Positions 17,079 through 49,431 of a DNA stretch of 52,526 nt are shown one piece after another. Both the position numbers and the translations under genes were made by a program. Source of the DNA: Fimbriimonadaceae bacterium (lineage in GTDB: Bacteria > Armatimonadota > Fimbriimonadia > Fimbriimonadales > Fimbriimonadaceae); assembly GCA_025934835.1 (NCBI GenBank), contig JAICWL010000012.1:1-52526 (forward strand), in the 5' to 3' direction. Under the pieces are notes generated by a model, which was given only the letters and a program-made list of their open reading frames with translations, ran no database searches and was not told the DNA's origin. Numbering within the stretch: position 1 is the first letter of the stretch; each line of letters opens with the position of its first letter.

Positions 17079-17121
17079 CCTAAACGTCTGCCGGATCTCT
17101 CTCGTGGAGGGACCGGCCTTG

Positions 17122-17149
17122 GTTCCCGGAGCTATCTCGCTCCGGGAAC
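17122..17149 (+). terminator. Hairpin terminator after the 16443 gene
   Basis: An 11-bp perfect stem (GTTCCCGGAGC at 17122-17132 with GCTCCGGGAAC at 17139-17149) has a 6-nt loop and is followed by GCTTAT, so the T-tract is poor. It sits directly upstream of the -10 box of the next gene, which starts 4 nt after the stem. Confidence 0.6.
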
Positions 17150-17152
17150 GCT

Positions 17153-17158
17153 TATCAT
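17153..17158 (+). promoter_or_regulatory. Leaderless-type -10 box (TATCAT) before the SRAP gene
   Basis: TATCAT ends exactly 6 nt before the ATG at 17165. The terminator stem of the previous gene occupies the space where a -35 box would lie. Confidence 0.6.
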
Positions 17159-17164
17159 AAGAGC

Positions 17165-17902
17165 ATGTGTGCCCGCTACTCCTTGGCAGCGATTCCGGAG
17201 CAGATCGAGAGCCTGTTCGATATCGCGCCGACGGGCGACCTCGAGCCGAGATACAACATCGCCCCGACGCAGCAGGTGCCTGCGGTGGTGGAGGGCAAAG
17301 CAGGGCATGAGCTCCGCTATTTCCAGTGGGGACTGATCCCCTCTTGGGCGAAGGACGCTTCGATCGGCCATAGGCTCATAAATGCGCGATCGGAGACGGC
17401 GTTCGAGCGGCCCGCGTTTCGATCCGCCATGGAGCGCCGCCGCTGCCTCCTTCCCACCTCTGGCTTTTACGAGTGGCGCGAGGCCGACAAAGCCCAGAAT
17501 CAGGCGGCTTTTGATGGCATGGACACAAAGCCTCGTAAGCCGAAAGCCGGTCCGAAGCAGCCTTATCGCTTCGAAGTCGACGGCGGCGAGTTGTTCGCGT
17601 TCGCGGGGCTGTGGGAAGTGTGGGACTCGCCCTCCGGGGAGCCGATCCAAACCTGCACGATGCTGACGACCAGCGCAAACCATCTGCTTACGATGTTTCA
17701 CGACCGAATGCCCTGCATTCTGACGAAGCAGGATTTCGATGTCTTTCTCGATCTATCCATGGGGCGAGAAGAGTTGGCCGCAGTCTTATCGCCGTTCCCC
17801 GACGAGCGGATGCGAGCGGTTCCCGTCAATACTGCGCTGAACAACCCACGAAACGAAGACCCAGACCTGGCTTTGCCGGTGGGACCCGTGCTCACTGCGT
17901 AG
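17165..17902 (+). CDS. yedK: SRAP-domain protein (YedK/HMCES): abasic-site DNA-protein crosslinker
   Basis: SRAP proteins form a thiazolidine crosslink between Cys2 and abasic sites in single-stranded DNA, shielding them from cleavage. The 245-residue product begins M-C-A-R-Y, so Cys2 is exposed after Met removal. Other family blocks are RYNIAPTQQ, WGLIPSWAKD, INARSET, RRCLLPTSGFYEW (conserved Glu) and TTSANHLLTMFHDRMP (conserved His). Length is normal. The start is fixed by the Cys2 requirement and by TATCAT 6 nt upstream. It is followed after 9 nt by an aldehyde dehydrogenase gene with its own -10-like box. Confidence 0.95.
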   Translation: MCARYSLAAIPEQIESLFDIAPTGDLEPRYNIAPTQQVPAVVEGKAGHELRYFQWGLIPSWAKDASIGHRLINARSETAFERPAFRSAMERRRCLLPTSGFYEWREADKAQNQAAFDGMDTKPRKPKAGPKQPYRFEVDGGELFAFAGLWEVWDSPSGEPIQTCTMLTTSANHLLTMFHDRMPCILTKQDFDVFLDLSMGREELAAVLSPFPDERMRAVPVNTALNNPRNEDPDLALPVGPVLTA

Positions 17903-17905
17903 CAT
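17900..17905 (+). promoter_or_regulatory. Leaderless-type -10 box (TAGCAT) overlapping the SRAP stop
   Basis: TAGCAT ends exactly 6 nt before the ATG at 17912. Its first three bases are the TAG stop codon of the SRAP gene, so one trinucleotide would serve both translation termination and promoter recognition. Confidence 0.55.
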
Positions 17906-17911
17906 AAGACC

Positions 17912-19354
17912 ATGAGGACCGCAGAGCTGCTCATCGGGGGGCACTTCGTGGGGGGCGTTTGCGACCAAACCACGCCGAAGCAGGTCGTGAAGGACCCGTT
18001 CGACGAATCCACAGTTGGAGTTGCGGCCGAAGGGGGTCGCCAAGAGCTTCTGGGGTGCATCGAAGCCGCTCATGAAGCGTTCGGGTCTTGGCGGAACTCG
18101 CCCCGGCATGCGCGCCAAAAGCTGCTGCGCGACATAGCAGGGAAAGTTCGAGAGCGAGCGAATGAGCTGTCGGACATCCTTACCCGCGAGGTCGGCAAGC
18201 CGATATCCTGGTCGCGTGGAGAGGTATCGAGGCTGGCGTTGACGTTCGACTATGCCGCCGATCTGCTGTCCACCTGGGGCGTCGCGCAGCTTCCGGTGGA
18301 TATGGATCCTCGCGGCGAAGGGTATCGATGTTTCGTAGATCGTTTCCCGGTGGGGGTGGTGTTTTGCATCACTCCCTATAACTGGCCGTACAACCTGGCG
18401 GCGCACAAAATCGCACCGGCGCTCGCCACAGGCAACACGGTCGTTCTCAAGCCGAGCCCGCAGTCGTCGATATCTACCCTGACGATGGCGCGCCTGATCC
18501 ACGAGGCTGGTTGCCCGCCGGGCGTGGTGAACGCTTGGAATGGCGACACGCCGCTTGTTGCCGAGGCACTGCACGACCCGCGAGTCAAAATCGTCAGTTT
18601 TACGGGGTCCGAGGCGGTCGGCTGGCAGATCAAGGAGGCGACGCCCGGTAAGAAGGTCTCGTTGGAGCTGGGCGGCGACGCTTCCGCTGTAGTCATGCCA
18701 GACGCCGACCTAGATTGGGCCGTGAAGCGGATTGTGTCCGGAGGTTACGGCTATGCCGGGCAGGTATGCATCTCGATCCAGCACGTACTGATTCACCGCT
18801 CGGTATACGAAGAAGCGGTAGACAAGCTGACCAAGGCCACAGATGCATGCCCGACCGGTGATCCCAAGCTCGAGGACACCGTGTGCGGGCCGCTGATCTC
18901 CGAGAGCGCGGTCCGTCGGGTGACGCAATGGGTTGACGAGGCGCGCAGCGCGGAAGCGAAGGTTCTGGCGGGCGGCGGAGTCGAAGGCAACGTCATGCGT
19001 CCGACCCTGCTCGAAGCCGTGCCAGATGGAACCAAACTGTCGACCGAAGAAGTGTTCGGTCCGGTGCTCACAGTCCGCCCGTTCGATGACCTTGATGAAG
19101 CTATCGAACGCGTCGATCGATCACGGTTCGGTATCCACTGCGGCATCTTCACGCAGAACATTCGGTGGGCCGAGGATGCTTATCGACGTCTCGACGTCGG
19201 GGCCGTGATCGTGGACGACTACCCTACGCTTAGATTCGACAACATGCCTTATGGCGGCCAGCGGAGGAGCGGTTTCGGACGGGAGGGGCTCGCCTACGCG
19301 ATGGATGAGTACACCGAGCCGAAAGCTATGGTGGTTCGGGTTCGGCCGCTGTAG
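17912..19354 (+). CDS. NAD(P)-dependent aldehyde dehydrogenase
   Basis: The 480-residue protein is a complete ALDH-superfamily enzyme oxidising an aldehyde to a carboxylate. Catalytic residues are Asn157 (ITPYNWPYN), Glu252 (LELGGD) and Cys286 (GQVCIS). The Rossmann FTGSEAVG segment is at about 230, and EVFGPVLTVRPF near 360 is the cofactor-contacting block. The QVCISIQ context resembles the NADP-glyceraldehyde-3-phosphate or lactaldehyde dehydrogenase branch, but the substrate cannot be assigned. It lies 9 nt after the SRAP gene and 9 nt before the Rieske oxygenase gene. Confidence 0.93.
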   Translation: MRTAELLIGGHFVGGVCDQTTPKQVVKDPFDESTVGVAAEGGRQELLGCIEAAHEAFGSWRNSPRHARQKLLRDIAGKVRERANELSDILTREVGKPISWSRGEVSRLALTFDYAADLLSTWGVAQLPVDMDPRGEGYRCFVDRFPVGVVFCITPYNWPYNLAAHKIAPALATGNTVVLKPSPQSSISTLTMARLIHEAGCPPGVVNAWNGDTPLVAEALHDPRVKIVSFTGSEAVGWQIKEATPGKKVSLELGGDASAVVMPDADLDWAVKRIVSGGYGYAGQVCISIQHVLIHRSVYEEAVDKLTKATDACPTGDPKLEDTVCGPLISESAVRRVTQWVDEARSAEAKVLAGGGVEGNVMRPTLLEAVPDGTKLSTEEVFGPVLTVRPFDDLDEAIERVDRSRFGIHCGIFTQNIRWAEDAYRRLDVGAVIVDDYPTLRFDNMPYGGQRRSGFGREGLAYAMDEYTEPKAMVVRVRPL

Positions 19355-19357
19355 ACT
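19352..19357 (+). promoter_or_regulatory. Leaderless-type -10 box (TAGACT) overlapping the ALDH stop
   Basis: TAGACT ends exactly 6 nt before the ATG at 19364 and begins with the TAG stop codon of the ALDH gene. It repeats the arrangement at 17900. Confidence 0.55.
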
Positions 19358-19363
19358 CAGCGA

Positions 19364-20455
19364 ATGGACCTGAAAGTCGAGGAGAATATCGCTCGGGCTT
19401 CCACGCTGCCGAGCGCGTTCTACAAAGACCCGGCGATCTACGAGGCTTCCAAAGAGGCGATATTCGCCTCGAGCTGGCAATTCCTCGGAGACACGGATTC
19501 CTTAAAGAGCCCAGGTTCTGTACATCCGCTGATTCTGCTCGAAGGCTGCTTAGACGAACCGCTCGTCGTCACCCGTGATATGGACGACTCGCTGCACCTA
19601 CTGAGCAACGTATGCACCCACCGGGGGATGAGCGTGGTGGAGGGCGCGGCCGTCGAACGAAGCCTTCGTTGTCGTTATCACGGGAGGCGATTCTCGTTGG
19701 ACGGCACGTTCCATTCGATGCCCGAGTTCGACGGTGTCGAAGATTTCCCTCGCCCGTGCGACGACCTGCCCAAAGTGCCATTTGGGCGATGGGGCAAGTT
19801 GCTCTTCGGTTCGGTGCGCCCGGCGGCGCCGATCGAAGCGGTGATCGAACCGATGCGGGAGCGGATGGCGTGGCTTCCTTTGACCGAGTTTTGCTACGAG
19901 CCGTCGAGAGCTCGGGAGTATATGGTCCACGCTAATTGGGCGCTCTATGTGGACAACTACCTCGAGGGTTTCCACATACCGTACATTCACGCCTCGCTGA
20001 ATAGCACGCTCGACTACGAGAACTATTCGACCCATCAGTACGCTTGGTCGAATCTGCAGTTCGCTGTGGCCAAGGACGGGGAAGAGGTTTTCGATCTGCC
20101 TGAGGGCTCCCCCGACTTCGGGGCGAGAATTGGCGCCTACTATTACTGGGTCTTCCCGAACACCATGTTCAACTTCTATCCATGGGGCTTGTCGATCAAT
20201 GTCGTTCGCCCGCTGGGGCCAGAGCTCACAAAAATCTCGTTTCTGCCGTACGTTTGGCGCGCGGAGAAGTTGAACCGAGGCGCAGGAAGCGCGCTCGACC
20301 GAGTCGAGCGAGAAGATGAAGCGGTCGTGGAAGCCGTGCAGCGTGGGGTGCGCTCGAGGTTTTACGACCGGGGCCGGTTCTCGGTCCGCCGGGAGGCGAA
20401 CGTCCACCAGTTCCATCGGCTCATCGCGCAAGCGATGAGCCGGCCCGAAAGCTAG
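19364..20455 (+). CDS. Rieske [2Fe-2S] aromatic-ring-hydroxylating oxygenase alpha subunit-like
   Basis: The 363-residue protein has an N-terminal Rieske domain with cluster ligands C84-x-H86 and C103-x2-H106 (NVCTHRG...CRYHGRRF). A C-terminal SRPBCC catalytic domain carries the mononuclear-iron signature DNYLEGFHIPYIH (H204 and H209, with D197 as the bridging residue). Such oxygenases use a separate reductase; none is encoded next to it. The substrate is unknown; relatives act on aromatic rings, quaternary amines and choline-like compounds. Co-location with an aldehyde dehydrogenase would suit a demethylation or side-chain oxidation pathway (inference). Its TAG stop is shared with the convergent PD40 gene through CTAG. 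Confidence 0.92.
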   Translation: MDLKVEENIARASTLPSAFYKDPAIYEASKEAIFASSWQFLGDTDSLKSPGSVHPLILLEGCLDEPLVVTRDMDDSLHLLSNVCTHRGMSVVEGAAVERSLRCRYHGRRFSLDGTFHSMPEFDGVEDFPRPCDDLPKVPFGRWGKLLFGSVRPAAPIEAVIEPMRERMAWLPLTEFCYEPSRAREYMVHANWALYVDNYLEGFHIPYIHASLNSTLDYENYSTHQYAWSNLQFAVAKDGEEVFDLPEGSPDFGARIGAYYYWVFPNTMFNFYPWGLSINVVRPLGPELTKISFLPYVWRAEKLNRGAGSALDRVEREDEAVVEAVQRGVRSRFYDRGRFSVRREANVHQFHRLIAQAMSRPES

Positions 20456-23837: not shown

Positions 23838-24956
23838 ATGAGGATTTACACTTCCGAAAGCGTGAGCGAGGGCCATCCGGACAAGCTTGCCGATCAGATT
23901 TCGGACGCCCTGCTAGACGAGTGTTTGGTGCAGGACGAGAATGCCCGGGTGGCCATCGAAACGCTGCTGACGCGCGGCCTGGCAGTTGTTGCAGGTGAAG
24001 TAACGGTCGAGGGATACATCGACGTCGCGGACATCGTTCGGCGGACGATCAAAGAAGTGGGCTACACCGATACGGAACTCGGCTTTGACGGCAACACTTG
24101 CGGAGTCATGGTGGCGCTCCAAGAGCAGTCGCCCGACATCGCTCTTGGCGTGGACGTTGGAGGCGCGGGCGATCAGGGCATGATGTTTGGCATGGCCACT
24201 GACGAGACGCCGGAGCTAATGCCGCTCCCGATTTCTTTGGCCCACGCGCTCACTCGCCAGTCGGCCAAAGTCCGCAAAGAAAATCCCGAGCTTGGCCTTA
24301 GACCAGATGCGAAAAGCCAAGTGTCGATCCGCTACGACGAAAAGGGGCCGCGCGCCATCGAGACTGTGGTCTTCAGCCAGCAGCATGGGCCAGGCATGGA
24401 AGATTCCGTCAAAGACACCGTTCGCACGCGAATCATCGAACCGGTTCTAGAGGAGTACTCCGAGTACGACCAGACCCGCATCGAGACGCACATCAACCCG
24501 ACAGGCAAGTTTGAGATTGGCGGCCCACAGGCCGACACCGGCGTGACCGGCCGCAAGATCATCGTGGACACCTACGGCGGAATGTGCCCGCACGGCGGTG
24601 GCGCGTTCAGCGGCAAAGATCCTACGAAGGTTGATCGCAGCGCGGCTTACATGGCGCGGCATCTCGCCAAGTGCATCGTGAAAGCCGGCCTGGCCCATCG
24701 AGTCGTCGTTCAATTTGCGTATGCCATCGGCGTTGTCCAGCCTATTGCGCTGAACATCGAAACCTTCGGAACCGAGACCGTTGCACCGGAGGAGATCGAA
24801 AGGCGCGTCCGTAAGAACTTCGATCTTTCTCCGAAAGGCATCATCGAGCATCTCTGCCTGAAGGAAACGAAGTATCTGCCTACTGCCAAGAATGGCCATT
24901 TCGGCAACCCGAGATTTCCCTGGGAGCGCACCAAGGAAGCCGAGCGGCTGCGCTAA
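23838..24956 (+). CDS. metK: S-adenosylmethionine synthetase
   Basis: MetK makes S-adenosylmethionine from methionine and ATP. The 372-residue protein has ESVSEGHPDKLADQISDA (the methionine and ATP site), the signature GAGDQGMMFG, DAKSQVSI, the second signature GGGAFSGKDPTKVDRS and the C-terminal RFPWER end. ATG 23838 gives the canonical MRIYTSES start; the frame is open to 23658 but that overlaps the DinB gene. The 76-nt upstream gap is too short for a SAM riboswitch. The TAA stop is shared with lpxB through CTAA. Confidence 0.97.
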   Translation: MRIYTSESVSEGHPDKLADQISDALLDECLVQDENARVAIETLLTRGLAVVAGEVTVEGYIDVADIVRRTIKEVGYTDTELGFDGNTCGVMVALQEQSPDIALGVDVGGAGDQGMMFGMATDETPELMPLPISLAHALTRQSAKVRKENPELGLRPDAKSQVSIRYDEKGPRAIETVVFSQQHGPGMEDSVKDTVRTRIIEPVLEEYSEYDQTRIETHINPTGKFEIGGPQADTGVTGRKIIVDTYGGMCPHGGGAFSGKDPTKVDRSAAYMARHLAKCIVKAGLAHRVVVQFAYAIGVVQPIALNIETFGTETVAPEEIERRVRKNFDLSPKGIIEHLCLKETKYLPTAKNGHFGNPRFPWERTKEAERLR

Positions 24957-28660: not shown

Positions 28661-29563
28661 CCTAATGCGATTGAATAGGTCCTGGAAAATGGCGTTCCTA
28701 GCCACCCAGCTTGCCGACCGCACCGGATGCCGGCTACTCTCGAAGCGCCAGGTCAAATCTTCCGCGAGGATGGGCGACGGCACGACCTCGGCGCGAACGA
28801 AGGCAGGATCCGCCAGCCAGGCCGTGGCTGCCAAGTCCCAAATCTCCTTTTCGTAGCCAACCCTATCCAGCCCATGAGATTCGAACAATCCGGTGAGGAG
28901 GCGTCCGACCGGGCCGCTCGAACCAATATCGCGCTGGAGGCCAGGGAACCCGAGCAGCATGTGAGACGCTACTCCCAGGCAAGGAATGAGGATGAGCGGC
29001 ACTCCCGAATCGAGCAGCACTCTCGCGGAATTCGGATCTTGAGATAGGTTGAATTCGCGCGCATGGGGCCAGCCCAGGGCGTGGCCACCGAGCCAGACCA
29101 CGACAATCTTTCGAATGATTTCAGGCGCCAAGAGGATGGCCGAAGCAACGTCGGTCGCCGCGGCCGTAGCCACGACGTACAAGGGCAGATCGCTCTCCCT
29201 CGCGAGCTGGACCAAGTGCTCGGCCGCATCGCTGTTTACGGGCTCGGGACGGTCGGCCATGAACCGGCGCGAGCCGCGCAGCACATCGGGCGGGTTCACC
29301 GGATCGAGGGCTTCGAGGACGCGCAGCGTCTCGCGGTAGCTCTTCTCCATGCCGTCTTCCGGCCCGGAAGAGCGCTCGTTGCTGAAAGGCGCCGCATAGA
29401 TCGCCCGTATGTCAAATCGCTCGGGACAAAGGAGAGCATGCGCGATGGCGAACTGGTCGTCCACCTCGTTATCGGTGTCGCAGTCCATGACCACCCGCAG
29501 GCGCCCGGACGGGTATTCGAGCCGGCTGCGCAGCAGGTCGAGGTCCGGCGCTGGGAATGTCAT
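28649..29563 (-). CDS. Nucleoside hydrolase family protein (IUNH-like)
   Basis: The 304-residue protein resembles inosine-uridine preferring nucleoside hydrolases, which cleave the N-glycosidic bond of ribonucleosides. The calcium-binding N-terminal motif reads MDCDTDNEVDDQFAIAHAL, where the common form is DTDPGIDD; the Asn-Glu variant occurs in a branch of less characterised relatives. ATAAATDVASAILLAPE and VWLGGHALGWP blocks fit the family core. The ATG at 29563 overlaps the ftsY stop as ATGA, so it is translationally coupled to ftsY, an odd functional pairing. Nucleoside-type ABC permeases occur at the right end of the window. Confidence 0.83.
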   Translation of the reverse strand: MTFPAPDLDLLRSRLEYPSGRLRVVMDCDTDNEVDDQFAIAHALLCPERFDIRAIYAAPFSNERSSGPEDGMEKSYRETLRVLEALDPVNPPDVLRGSRRFMADRPEPVNSDAAEHLVQLARESDLPLYVVATAAATDVASAILLAPEIIRKIVVVWLGGHALGWPHAREFNLSQDPNSARVLLDSGVPLILIPCLGVASHMLLGFPGLQRDIGSSGPVGRLLTGLFESHGLDRVGYEKEIWDLAATAWLADPAFVRAEVVPSPILAEDLTWRFESSRHPVRSASWVARNAIFQDLFNRIRRQA

Positions 29564-30432
29564 TCGAAAAGGCTCGCCGCGAATTGGTCCGGCTTGAAGT
29601 CCTTCAGATCCTCCGCTTTCTCGCCCGTTCCGATCAGTTTCACGGGAATCTTGAGACGTTCGTAGACGCCGATCAGCGCGCCGCCTCGCGCGGTTCCATC
29701 CACTTTGGTGAGCACGAGGCCGGTAATCCGTGCGGCCCTTAGGAATTCCTCGGCTTGGCGGATAGCGTTTTGACCCGTGTTGGCGTCGAGCACCAGTAAT
29801 ATTTCATCCGGCTTCCTGCCGAGGGCCTTCTCGGCCACTCGCACGACCTTTTGGAGCTCTGCCATAAGGTTCGCTTTGGAGTGCTGCCGGCCGGCGGTGT
29901 CGGCCAGCACGAAGTCGATTCCTCGTGACCGGGCGGCCGTGATAGCGTCGAAGACCACCGCGCTCGCATCGGATCCTGGCTGCGACCGAACGATTTCGAC
30001 GCCCACTCGGTTCGCCCAAGCTTCGAGCTGATCGATAGCGGCCGCTCGGAACGTGTCTCCGGCTGCGAGCATGACCGAGAACCCTTTGCGCTTGAGCAGG
30101 TGAGCGACCTTGGCGATCGTGGTCGTCTTGCCCACGCCGTTAACGCCGACGAATAGGAAAACAGACGGCGGCTCGTCGCTGTACTCGAGTCCCGCAGGAC
30201 CTTGCGAGCGGAAGCGGTCGGCTATCTCCTGCTGTAGCCGGACCTTCATTTCAGTCGGATTGGTGACCTTCTCCTCTCGAACGGCGCGCCGAAGCGCTTC
30301 GAGAATTTCGTGGGCGGTGGTGACGTTCGTGTCCGTTTGAAGGAGCGCTTCCTCGAGCTCCTCATAGAACTCGTCGTCGATCACACCTCGGCCCATGATC
30401 CGGTCATACCGCTCCATCAGCCGCTTGAACAT
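29560..30432 (-). CDS. ftsY: Signal recognition particle receptor FtsY
   Basis: FtsY is the membrane-associated SRP receptor GTPase. The 290-residue protein is nearly the minimal NG domain: a short helical N domain (residues 1-85), then G1 GVNGVGKTTT, the DTFRAAAIDQL block, G3 DTAGRQHSK, G4 TKVDGTARGG and the C-terminal GTGEKAEDLKDF closing motif. The long acidic A domain of E. coli FtsY is absent, as in many phyla. Its stop overlaps the start of the nucleoside hydrolase gene. Divergent from the small membrane protein gene at 30557. Confidence 0.96.
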   Translation of the reverse strand: MFKRLMERYDRIMGRGVIDDEFYEELEEALLQTDTNVTTAHEILEALRRAVREEKVTNPTEMKVRLQQEIADRFRSQGPAGLEYSDEPPSVFLFVGVNGVGKTTTIAKVAHLLKRKGFSVMLAAGDTFRAAAIDQLEAWANRVGVEIVRSQPGSDASAVVFDAITAARSRGIDFVLADTAGRQHSKANLMAELQKVVRVAEKALGRKPDEILLVLDANTGQNAIRQAEEFLRAARITGLVLTKVDGTARGGALIGVYERLKIPVKLIGTGEKAEDLKDFKPDQFAASLFE

Positions 30433-46627: not shown

Positions 46628-47269
46628 ATGAACGCACGAGGAACAGGCACGCGTAAGCCGGGCGCAACGCAAGAGCAGCATGCGCCCCTGTGGATCAAGT
46701 GCTTTGTGCTCTTCCACTTGCTCGCGATCACAGTATGGGCGCTGCCGAACCCGCCCCAGGGCATCGTGGACGGGAAAGTGGAGCCGGCAGGAACGGACTG
46801 GATTCTTGTTTACGACAAGAAATACGTCCAGCCTGCGCCCCCTTTCCAGCAGTATCTGATCCTGACCGGCTTTTGGCAGTACTGGGACATGTTCGCGCCC
46901 GACCCCGTGCAACAGGATGTGTGGTGTGATGCCGAGGTGCTGTACAAGGACGGCTCGAAGCGCCGCTACGGCTATCCTCGCATCTACGATCTCCCGATCC
47001 TCGCGAAATACCCCAAGGAGCGATATCGCAAGTTCTTCGAGCGTGCTCCCGACCCGACCAGCGCGTTCCTTTGGGCGCAGTTCGGCCAAAGGATTGCCTA
47101 TCTGAACGCCGATAATCCCGCGAATCCGCCGGTCAAAGTGTTTCTCCACAAGCATGTGCTGCTGATCTCCCCTCCTGGCTTGCCGCAGGCGACCCAGTAC
47201 ACGGACCAGCAGTACTACGTCCACGTCGTCGACCAGCGTCGCCTCGCTAAGGACCTGGCGAGGGGCTAA
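46628..47269 (+). CDS. Membrane-anchored partner of HTTM protein (DUF5819-like)
   Basis: The 213-residue protein has one N-terminal membrane helix (IKCFVLFHLLAITVWAL) and an external domain with a W-x-x-x-D-M-F-A-P-D-P motif (FWQYWDMFAPDPVQQDV). Similar W-x-M-F-A-P-x-P proteins, such as DUF5819, occur beside HTTM genes (from memory of such neighbourhoods). Two late His-containing strands (VFLHKHVLLISPP and YYVHVVDQ) follow. The stop shares an A with the HTTM start (TAATG), so the two are made together and probably form a complex (inference). No enzymatic role can be stated. Confidence 0.65.
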   Translation: MNARGTGTRKPGATQEQHAPLWIKCFVLFHLLAITVWALPNPPQGIVDGKVEPAGTDWILVYDKKYVQPAPPFQQYLILTGFWQYWDMFAPDPVQQDVWCDAEVLYKDGSKRRYGYPRIYDLPILAKYPKERYRKFFERAPDPTSAFLWAQFGQRIAYLNADNPANPPVKVFLHKHVLLISPPGLPQATQYTDQQYYVHVVDQRRLAKDLARG

Positions 47270-48519
47270 TGAGCGAGCCCCAGGAAAGTTTTTGGGAGTC
47301 TGTGAACCGATATTGGTTCGGCCGGGGGTCCCCCACCAGTCTGGGGCTTCTCAGAATCTGCACCGGCATCCTCACGTTCATCGATCTTTCGCTGCTGCTT
47401 CCGGACTGGAAAGCATGGTTTAGCCAGGTCGGCTATGTGCCGACATGGATTGGCGCCATGTTCATGAACCAGCACATCGAGGCGTGGCCGAAATCACCTT
47501 TCACGCTCCCGCGCACCGACATTTTCGTGGCAATCACCGATCCTCGGATCAGCTTCGCACTGTACGTGGCGATCATGGTGTTGGCGCTGCTGACGGCGCT
47601 CGGACTTTGGACGCGCGTTAGCTCGCTTCTTCTCGCGGTCGGAATGGTCTCCCTACAGCACCGAAACGGGGCCATCCTGCATGGCGGCGACACCGTGCTC
47701 CGGCTGTGCGTATTGTATGTGGCGATCTCGCCGGCGGGGAGGGCGTGCTCGATCGATCGGTTGATTGCGCTGTGGAAAGGCCGAGAGAGCCCCAATCCAG
47801 TGCTCGTTTATATCTGGCCCCAGCGGCTCGTGAGCTACAACGTCGCACTCATCTATTTCACAACGGTGTGGCTCAAGACCTTCGGGCACCTCTGGCGCAA
47901 CGGCACGGCAACCTGGTATCCCGCCAGGCTGAACGAGTTTCACCGATTCCCGGTGCCGGCGTTCTTCAACGAGCTTCCGATGGTGTACATCACGACCTAC
48001 GGGACGCTCGCCGTGGAGTTTTCTCTTGCTACGCTGGTGTTCTTCCGGCCGCTGCGAAAGTATTGCGTGCTCGGCGGCATCATGCTGCACGCTTCCATCG
48101 AGTACACCATGAACATTCCGCTGTTCAGCTACCTGATGGTGTCGATGTACATCTGCTTCTTCGATGGGGAAGAGATATCAGCCTGGGCGGAGCGGGTCGG
48201 CCGGCAGCTCAAGGGGCTGCATGCTTCGATCTTCTTGCCTCAAGGCACCAGGCTTCGTCCGGCTGCGGCGGCGTTCTTGGACGCGGTTGACCCCCTGAAA
48301 GTTGTGAATTATCTCCCGGGCCACGGGCCGACCTGGACTGCGGAACCCAACGGGCGGGCCGCGCACATCTCGTGGACACGCAGCTTGGGTGCTTGGGTTT
48401 TCGCCTGGGTTCCCGGGGTCTGGCCGAAGATTTTGGATGCCAGCCTCGAGCCCGCCAAGGAGGAGCCGGTTGATCCCGCCAAGCAGCGTGCCAAGACGAA
48501 GAAGCATGCTTCCAGGTAA
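47269..48519 (+). CDS. HTTM-domain membrane protein (gamma-carboxylase-like)
   Basis: The 416-residue protein has the multi-pass HTTM architecture related to vitamin K-dependent gamma-glutamyl carboxylase: SLGLLRICTGILTFIDLSLLLPDW as first helix, then about six more, with RNGAILHGGDTVLRLCVLYV (the conserved N-G-x-x-x-x-G-D segment) and YFTTVWLKTFGHLWRNGTATWY. A soluble C-terminal region of about 100 residues ends in basic residues. The function in bacteria is unproven; carboxylation or lipid-linked reactions have been proposed. It is coupled to the 46628 partner by TAATG. Confidence 0.85.
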   Translation: MSEPQESFWESVNRYWFGRGSPTSLGLLRICTGILTFIDLSLLLPDWKAWFSQVGYVPTWIGAMFMNQHIEAWPKSPFTLPRTDIFVAITDPRISFALYVAIMVLALLTALGLWTRVSSLLLAVGMVSLQHRNGAILHGGDTVLRLCVLYVAISPAGRACSIDRLIALWKGRESPNPVLVYIWPQRLVSYNVALIYFTTVWLKTFGHLWRNGTATWYPARLNEFHRFPVPAFFNELPMVYITTYGTLAVEFSLATLVFFRPLRKYCVLGGIMLHASIEYTMNIPLFSYLMVSMYICFFDGEEISAWAERVGRQLKGLHASIFLPQGTRLRPAAAAFLDAVDPLKVVNYLPGHGPTWTAEPNGRAAHISWTRSLGAWVFAWVPGVWPKILDASLEPAKEEPVDPAKQRAKTKKHASR

Positions 48520-48528
48520 AAGCCAGTC

Positions 48529-49431
48529 ATGCGACCTTGGCAATTCGGCAAGCCCAAGAATCCGGGCTTCGGAATCAGCAAAGGCTACTACCTAACCATC
48601 CTCGCTTCGAAGGCGACCCTACCATCGCTGCTTGAGATCGCCAACCCTGCGGGTACTGGCGGCGCTGCTGTGGGACTGGCCGCCCCACTCGCGCCCGGTG
48701 CGGACCAAGACTCACTCTCGACGCCCATCGAGCGAGGCGCCTATGTGATTGCCACAAAGGACCGCAAGACCGTGATCAAGATGCTCGTGGTTAGCAAAGA
48801 GGAGGCCGGCTTCGACCCGGAGGAGTTCGTTCGCAGTTCGCTTGCCGCAGTCGCAGAGCCGGAGATGATCGCCCGGATCCGCGGCACCTGGAACCTCTTG
48901 CAGCTTACGATCGAATCTCACGACCCGATGGTCTACGCATCCCTCGATTTCTATCTGGGGATCGCGGTGCGCCTGGCAATACTCAGCGAGGGTGTAGTCG
49001 CCGATTCGATCTGCATGAGATATCTGCTGCCGCAGGATGTCATTCACCGCGACCGGCTGGAGCCCCAACTCGACGCGCGCGACCACGTCGCGGTGCACTT
49101 TAGAACCTCGGCCGGCGCTATCCATTGCTTCACGCTCGGAATGCAAAAGTTCAACTTGCCGGAGATCGAGGTCGCCGGCTTGCTCGACGCCGACCAGGCT
49201 GCAGCAGAGGCGTTTATGATCACCCTCTGCGAGACGATCCTGCTCGGAAGGCCGCTCCGGGAAGGGGATAGGGTCGGCGCAGACGCAGATCCGTTTGAGG
49301 TTCGAGTAGGAGGCTTCGACAAGGCTTTGTGGGAAGGCATTCCTGTGTTCGAACTGCTCCCGAGCACCCGCTCGACGGCGACCGACGCGCTCGCCGCGTG
49401 GGCCGGCGAAGCCAAGCTAAAACCGCGCTAG
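48529..49431 (+). CDS. Conserved-looking protein of unknown function, 300 aa
   Basis: Not recognised. The 300-residue protein has no signal peptide or membrane helix. It begins RPWQFGKPKNPGFGISKGYYLTILA, has an early Gly/Ala-rich region, then an alternating alpha/beta pattern (ARIRGTWNLLQLTIESHDPMVY and VADSICMRYLLPQDV) and a C-terminal FELLPSTRSTATDALAAW. It starts 10 nt after the HTTM gene and may belong to that cassette. TAAAAG, whose TAA is the HTTM stop, lies 6 nt before the ATG, a weak variant of the leaderless signal. The stop is shared with the convergent gene. Confidence 0.7.
   Translation: MRPWQFGKPKNPGFGISKGYYLTILASKATLPSLLEIANPAGTGGAAVGLAAPLAPGADQDSLSTPIERGAYVIATKDRKTVIKMLVVSKEEAGFDPEEFVRSSLAAVAEPEMIARIRGTWNLLQLTIESHDPMVYASLDFYLGIAVRLAILSEGVVADSICMRYLLPQDVIHRDRLEPQLDARDHVAVHFRTSAGAIHCFTLGMQKFNLPEIEVAGLLDADQAAAEAFMITLCETILLGRPLREGDRVGADADPFEVRVGGFDKALWEGIPVFELLPSTRSTATDALAAWAGEAKLKPR

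Follow-up and report, generated by a model that had tools for sequence, protein, structure and literature searches.

Stop codons inside predicted leaderless promoters at 9-nt gene junctions of an Armatimonadota-like bacterium

The TAG stop codons of two consecutive genes in a bacterial contig each form the first half of a TANNNT hexamer that ends 6 bp before the ATG of the following gene, and we consider it likely, judging from the sequence, that both belong to true -10 elements from which leaderless mRNAs are made. The DNA analysed (the window, 52,526 nucleotides) makes up the entire contig C45 in the genome assembly G000 (3.33 Mb). The host is termed Armatimonadota-like because the named genomes with the most similar aldehyde dehydrogenase (ALDH), at 52-53% identity, are two Chthonomonas/Chthonomonadaceae MAGs of the phylum Armatimonadota.

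Results

Two stop codons overlap predicted -10 boxes

The locus comprises three plus-strand genes, encoding an SOS response associated peptidase (SRAP) family protein (17165-17902; Pfam PF02586, E 4.1e-68, residues 1-228 of 245), an ALDH family protein (17912-19354; Pfam PF00171, E 7.3e-136) and a Rieske/ring-hydroxylating oxygenase alpha subunit (19364-20455; Pfam PF00355, E 4e-14, and PF00848, E 2.3e-28). The initial annotation had read the TAG stops of SRAP and ALDH as the beginning of TAGCAT and TAGACT boxes exactly 6 nt before the next ATG, and the sequence bears this out at both junctions. TAGCAT (17900-17905, plus strand) starts with the SRAP stop (17900-17902), which would be the first half of the ALDH -10 box, and is separated by the spacer AAGACC from the ATG at 17912. 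TAGACT (19352-19357, plus strand) starts with the ALDH stop (19352-19354), the first half of the predicted Rieske -10 box, and is followed by the spacer CAGCGA and the ATG at 19364. Each gap between the genes is 9 nt. Both junctions have the features of a leaderless box, a TANNNT hexamer whose end lies 6 bp from the ATG. Inspection of the sequence revealed no Shine-Dalgarno (SD)-like motif at either junction, and a search for a classical -35 element belonging to the TAGCAT or TAGACT box found none at normal spacing.

SRAP has a predicted leaderless -10 box of its own that the initial annotation did not contain, TATCAT (17153-17158, plus strand), 6 nt before the ATG at 17165 and with its first T at -12. 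Altogether, a box at -12 or -13 precedes 7 of the 52 genes in the window whose upstream DNA was usable. Two further junctions were considered and rejected as fused boxes. TAAAAG (48517-48522, plus strand), put forward originally as a weaker third case, begins with the TAA stop (48517-48519) of an HTTM-domain gene (47269-48519) and is correctly spaced, 6 nt before the ATG at 48529 with a gap of 9 nt, but it fails TANNNT because its sixth position is G and not T; it was not counted as a box. The sixth position is not T in the pair 43946/43957 (gap 10, TAATCGAAGGG) either.

RNA folding of the segment 5' of SRAP (17079-17164) gave -43.2 kcal/mol (z -5.26), and none of 200 shuffled sequences was as stable. 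Two strong hairpins in tandem (17090-17149) separate the SRAP box from the gene before it; the second, just 5' of the box (17122-17149, plus strand), is a perfect 11-bp stem. No T run follows it in the sequence. The second hairpin is possibly the end of the transcript that precedes SRAP.

TANNNT at -12 has the marks of a putative leaderless promoter box

Genes were called by codon statistics with a start-codon prior, and upstream motifs were not used, so that the starts are motif-blind. The G000 sample covered 795,123 bases with 626 genes, 603 of them with usable upstream DNA. Two genomes of the same genus were sampled, G008 (800,000 bases, 618 usable genes) and G006 (400,000 bases, 295 usable genes), as was G029, a genome of the same order (400,000 bases, 286 usable genes). 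Errors in start calling are expected to blur signals, not to favour T at one particular position following the stop.

TANNNT with its first T at -12 was found in 40/603 genes of G000, 44/618 of G008, 18/295 of G006 and 17/286 of G029. These rates are well over those at offsets beyond -20 or nearer than -11, and the peak at -12 has a weaker shoulder reaching about -17. The 400 kb of Deinococcus deserti plasmids taken as a positive control also showed the -12 peak (14/279 genes), while 300 kb of E. coli K-12, the negative control, had TANNNT at -12 in 1/221 genes. SD-like motifs precede 4% of the G000 and G008 genes boxed at -12/-13 (n = 121), as compared with 25% of the other genes. A G stands directly before 65 of 108 non-fused boxes and before 83 of 248 TANNNT hexamers elsewhere (p = 2e-6), giving a box consensus in G000 and G008 of about G-TANNCT. 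In the DNA before 87 boxed genes, TTGAC/TTGA showed no enrichment at spacers of 15-18 and a small count at spacer 19. With its sharp peak, few SD motifs, preceding G and conservation at ALDH orthologues (described below), TANNNT at -12 has the behaviour of a leaderless promoter box, and such predicted leaderless promoters are common in the G000 lineage. These features also lend support to the earlier proposal that each gene of the locus may have its own leaderless promoter.

In G029 the boxes are preceded by GG: of the 31 boxed genes, 26 have G at -1 and 28 have it at -2. G is also frequent before TANNNT elsewhere in that genome. The G before the boxes of G000, G008 and G006 and the GG in G029 could be a clade-specific extension of the -10 element. 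GTANNNT further occurs about 8-12 nt before the window starts at 23838 and 39533 and before the minus-strand gene 29560-30432. In G000 and G008 together GTANNNT is in excess from about -17 to -13, which suggests very short leaders or mis-called starts.

Stop codons and boxes coincide at gaps of 9-10 nt

We sorted the genes of G000 and G008 by the gap to the upstream gene. Among same-strand pairs, boxes were present in 1/230 at gaps of up to 8 nt, 13/24 at 9-10 nt, 1/42 at 11-20 nt, 11/78 at 21-40 nt and 39/403 above 40 nt; among divergent genes the figure was 48/370. The difference between gaps of 9-10 and 11-20 nt is significant at p = 1e-6. In all 13 boxed pairs at gaps of 9-10 nt the upstream stop starts the box, as TAG in 10 and TAA in 3. 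Other overlaps of a box with the upstream ORF, for example one in which the last T of the box is the T of the stop, were dismissed, as the 230 junctions with gaps of up to 8 nt hold a single box.

The initial annotation had suggested asking whether a stop followed by NNT is over-represented at such gaps, and in G000 and G008 it is. TARNNT was present at 10 of the 14 TAA/TAG stops with a gap of 9 nt and at 33 of the 154 whose gap was another value between 3 and 57 nt (Fisher p = 0.0002). The hypothesis of fused boxes arose from the two window cases; tests that leave the window out are weaker and still significant (8/11 versus 31/143, p = 0.0008). When TARNNT was shuffled over the 247 pairs of G000 and G008 with gaps of 0-50 nt, 4.4 fused boxes were expected at gaps of 9-10 nt, and the observed 13 were reached in 1 of 20,000 shuffles. 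Leaving out the window reduced the set to 232 pairs, with 11 fused boxes observed and 3.5 expected, a count again reached in 1 of 20,000. G precedes 10 of the 13 fused boxes; for TAA/TAG stops at other gaps the figure is 45 of 159 (p = 0.0007). This preference is seen in G000 alone (7/7 versus 30/90) and is not significant in G008 alone (3/6 versus 15/69).

The excess of gap-9 pairs in itself is weaker: there are 15, where neighbouring gaps average 6.1 (p = 0.0017), or 12 when the window is left out (p = 0.023). E. coli has pairs at gaps of 9-10 nt too, mostly of the stop-plus-SD kind, and the bare excess is therefore not the evidence. What argues for fusion in the sequence is the T at position 6, combined with a G before the box and the absence of SD motifs. 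TARNNT was found at 0 of 5 E. coli K-12 TAA/TAG stops with gaps of 9-10 nt (300 kb). The D. deserti plasmids (400 kb) are uninformative on fusion, because they contain no gene pair at these gaps. In G006 and G029 pooled the excess at gap 9 was absent (1/5 versus 12/72 at other gaps), so that the fusion is at best lineage-restricted or undersampled. G000 also has two TAAGGA junctions with gaps of 9 nt (L016, start 8649; L114, start 2771), where the stop is apparently fused to an SD motif.

The ALDH box is found in some relatives beside other neighbours

The 9-nt same-strand gaps gave the three genes the look of an operon in the initial annotation, and the gaps stand; the neighbourhood is not conserved in relatives. 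In G008 the genes for SRAP, ALDH and Rieske have their best homologues at 0.72, 4.81 and 3.00 Mb of a single 5.23-Mb contig, in G006 at 0.74, 0.83 and 0.28 Mb of one contig, and in G002 at 0.09, 1.63 and 0.64 Mb of one contig, more than 80 kb apart in each of these genomes.

Four of seven same-genus ALDH orthologues (59-64% identity) have TANNNT 6-7 nt before the start: TACACT in G017, TAACCT in G013, TATTCT in G005 and TACGAT in G019. By comparison with the genome-wide box rate this gives a binomial p of 0.003 on the assumption of independent relatives, which they are not. An upstream stop forms none of the four boxes. Three begin with TAC or TAT, and TAACCT of G013 is not the stop of the called upstream gene, which ends 25 nt before the start. 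Among the remaining close orthologues, G004 has TANNNT at 5 nt, and G008 and G012 have CANNNT at -12. TANNNT at 6-7 nt was seen in none of eight more distant relatives with a readable start, some of these starts being ambiguous (G020, G002, G010, G021, G022, G006, G009 and a Chthonomonas MAG); G010 has TAGTAT at 5 nt. Other ALDH loci were excluded because the match was too weak, or lay too deep in the protein, for the start to be located. Since four of the close orthologues keep TANNNT without an upstream stop, it appears that within the genus the ALDH box existed before it was fused to the SRAP stop. Cause and effect probably run opposite to what is implied by the title of the initial annotation, in which stop codons double as the first bases of a promoter: the box would be older, and the upstream ORF would have come to terminate in it.

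Discussion

A probable dual-use trinucleotide

In the mechanism that we favour, one trinucleotide would be read twice. At the DNA level, the housekeeping sigma factor would recognise TAGCAT and TAGACT as TANNNT, and transcription would start about 6-7 bp past the box, at or beside the A of the ATG. The resulting mRNA would begin at the start codon and be translated without an SD site. At the RNA level, the same TAG would be the stop in the transcript of the upstream gene. Sharing the TAG would let two genes stand 9 nt apart, each with its own promoter, and a gap of 9 nt would be the tightest spacing that keeps a box at -12 clear of sense codons of the upstream gene. Termination-reinitiation on transcripts that read through from upstream may give the downstream gene a further supply. 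The neighbourhood is most likely younger than the box, and a TAA or TAG within a -10 box would offer a ready stop to an ORF arriving in frame. A fused junction would allow a distal gene to be leaderless even when closely packed.

The readings that compete with or extend this mechanism overlap, and the confidence we place in it, in a combination with read-through and in passive capture of the stops is for this reason not exclusive. That internal leaderless promoters act together with read-through from SRAP, coupling providing a basal supply of ALDH and Rieske and their own promoters an independent one, comes close to an even chance. The genes are separated by only 9 nt, all of the sequence evidence for the boxes applies equally, and there is a precedent in Mycobacterium smegmatis, for which operon-internal promoters giving monocistronic transcripts are discussed (PMC6448022). 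The sequence cannot separate this combination from independent promoters alone. Without a conserved gene order or an obvious shared pathway, however, co-transcription of SRAP, ALDH and Rieske would be incidental.

It is also quite possible that the fusion is unselected: boxes would come first, upstream ORFs would drift until they meet an in-frame stop, and TAA or TAG boxes would catch one frame in three. The ALDH orthologues that have a box without the stop fit such passive capture, as do the unfused boxes at gaps of 21-40 nt. Boxes would be expected at gaps of 12-20 nt as well, but the frequency at 11-20 nt is low (p = 0.055 against 21-40 nt). Passive capture concerns the evolutionary origin and leaves promoter function unaffected. 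We are doubtful of the stronger proposal that the fusion is a selected junction type, giving the tightest packing in which each gene keeps its own leaderless promoter, with a stop, mostly TAG, maintained for both functions, and that it could account in part for TAG being the most frequent stop of G000 and G008. Fusions as the cause of the TAG abundance were rejected, because the 13 fused junctions found are too few.

TAG terminates 256/603 genes in G000 and 265/618 in G008, more than any other stop, which is not the case in G006 and G029. Among genes scoring above 40 its share is 43% in G000, 42% in G008, 24% in G006 and 27% in G029. Most prokaryotes use TGA more than TAG, according to the abstract of PMC10471768.

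A single polycistronic operon, with ALDH and Rieske translated by termination-reinitiation across the 9-nt gaps and TANNNT at the stops by chance, is improbable. It would suit the common strand, the repeated 9-nt gap and the lack of space for a terminator; TARNNT is frequent at TAA/TAG stops generally (167/823), and translational coupling is described as most efficient at short intergenic distances (PMC12548453). Two adjacent one-in-five matches, even with the exact spacing, could indeed be chance, but the excess remains without the window, neither junction has an SD-like motif, and the genes are unlinked in relatives, where the ALDH box is kept beside other neighbours. A translational signal at gap 9, a stop context or reinitiation motif in place of a promoter, would account for the fixed distance of TARNNT from both stop and start but is hardly credible, as the same hexamer occurs at -12/-13 of divergent genes, where no upstream ribosome arrives.

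Implications and relation to known systems

If the promoter reading is right, the leaderless -10-adjacent promoter extends to Armatimonadota, and one trinucleotide is constrained twice, by its role as an RNA stop and by its place in a DNA promoter. Touching genes could still be switched on separately through a fused stop and promoter. Operon predictors based on spacing would wrongly merge genes that probably have separate promoters, for which TARNNT-N6-ATG at gaps of 9-10 nt offers a simple rule.

No literature on a Pribnow box overlapping a stop codon was found among open-licence PMC papers, which as a partial collection make this absence weak evidence; nor did titles or abstracts there yield a paper on a leaderless -10-adjacent promoter in Armatimonadota. 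The closest known system is the -10 motif adjacent to ORFs in Deinococcus-Thermus (Zhong et al., 2025, PMC12340547; Zheng et al., 2011, PMC3160421). In Deinococcus, TANNNT located 6-7 bp ahead of an ORF is reported to have promoter function and not to be replaceable by an RBS, bases 1, 2 and 6 of the motif being irreplaceable (PMC12340547). The boxes described here share the position of TANNNT 6-7 bp before the start, the lack of SD and an mRNA that would be leaderless; a -35 element is reported not to be needed in Deinococcus-Thermus (PMC12340547; PMC3160421), and here none is enriched at normal spacing. They differ in the Armatimonadota-like host, in the G before the box and in that the TA of a junction box belongs to the upstream stop codon; the terms 'stop codon' and 'termination codon' are absent from PMC12340547. 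Mycobacterial leaderless genes (PMC4633059) and M. smegmatis promoters (PMC6448022) are similar in the start codon at the 5' end of the transcript, the TANNNT -10 element and the discussion of operon-internal promoters, whereas the available parts of these two papers stress RTGA couplings with small ORFs and describe no stop shared with a -10 box. Stops fused to an SD sequence (TAAGGAG) are alike in that the stop adjoins or forms part of the initiation signal of the next gene at a gap of 9-10 nt; unlike these translation signals in RNA, TARNNT lacks SD bases and matches a promoter element in DNA. The analysis supports the predicted stop-promoter fusion as a systematic variant of the known leaderless -10-adjacent promoter.
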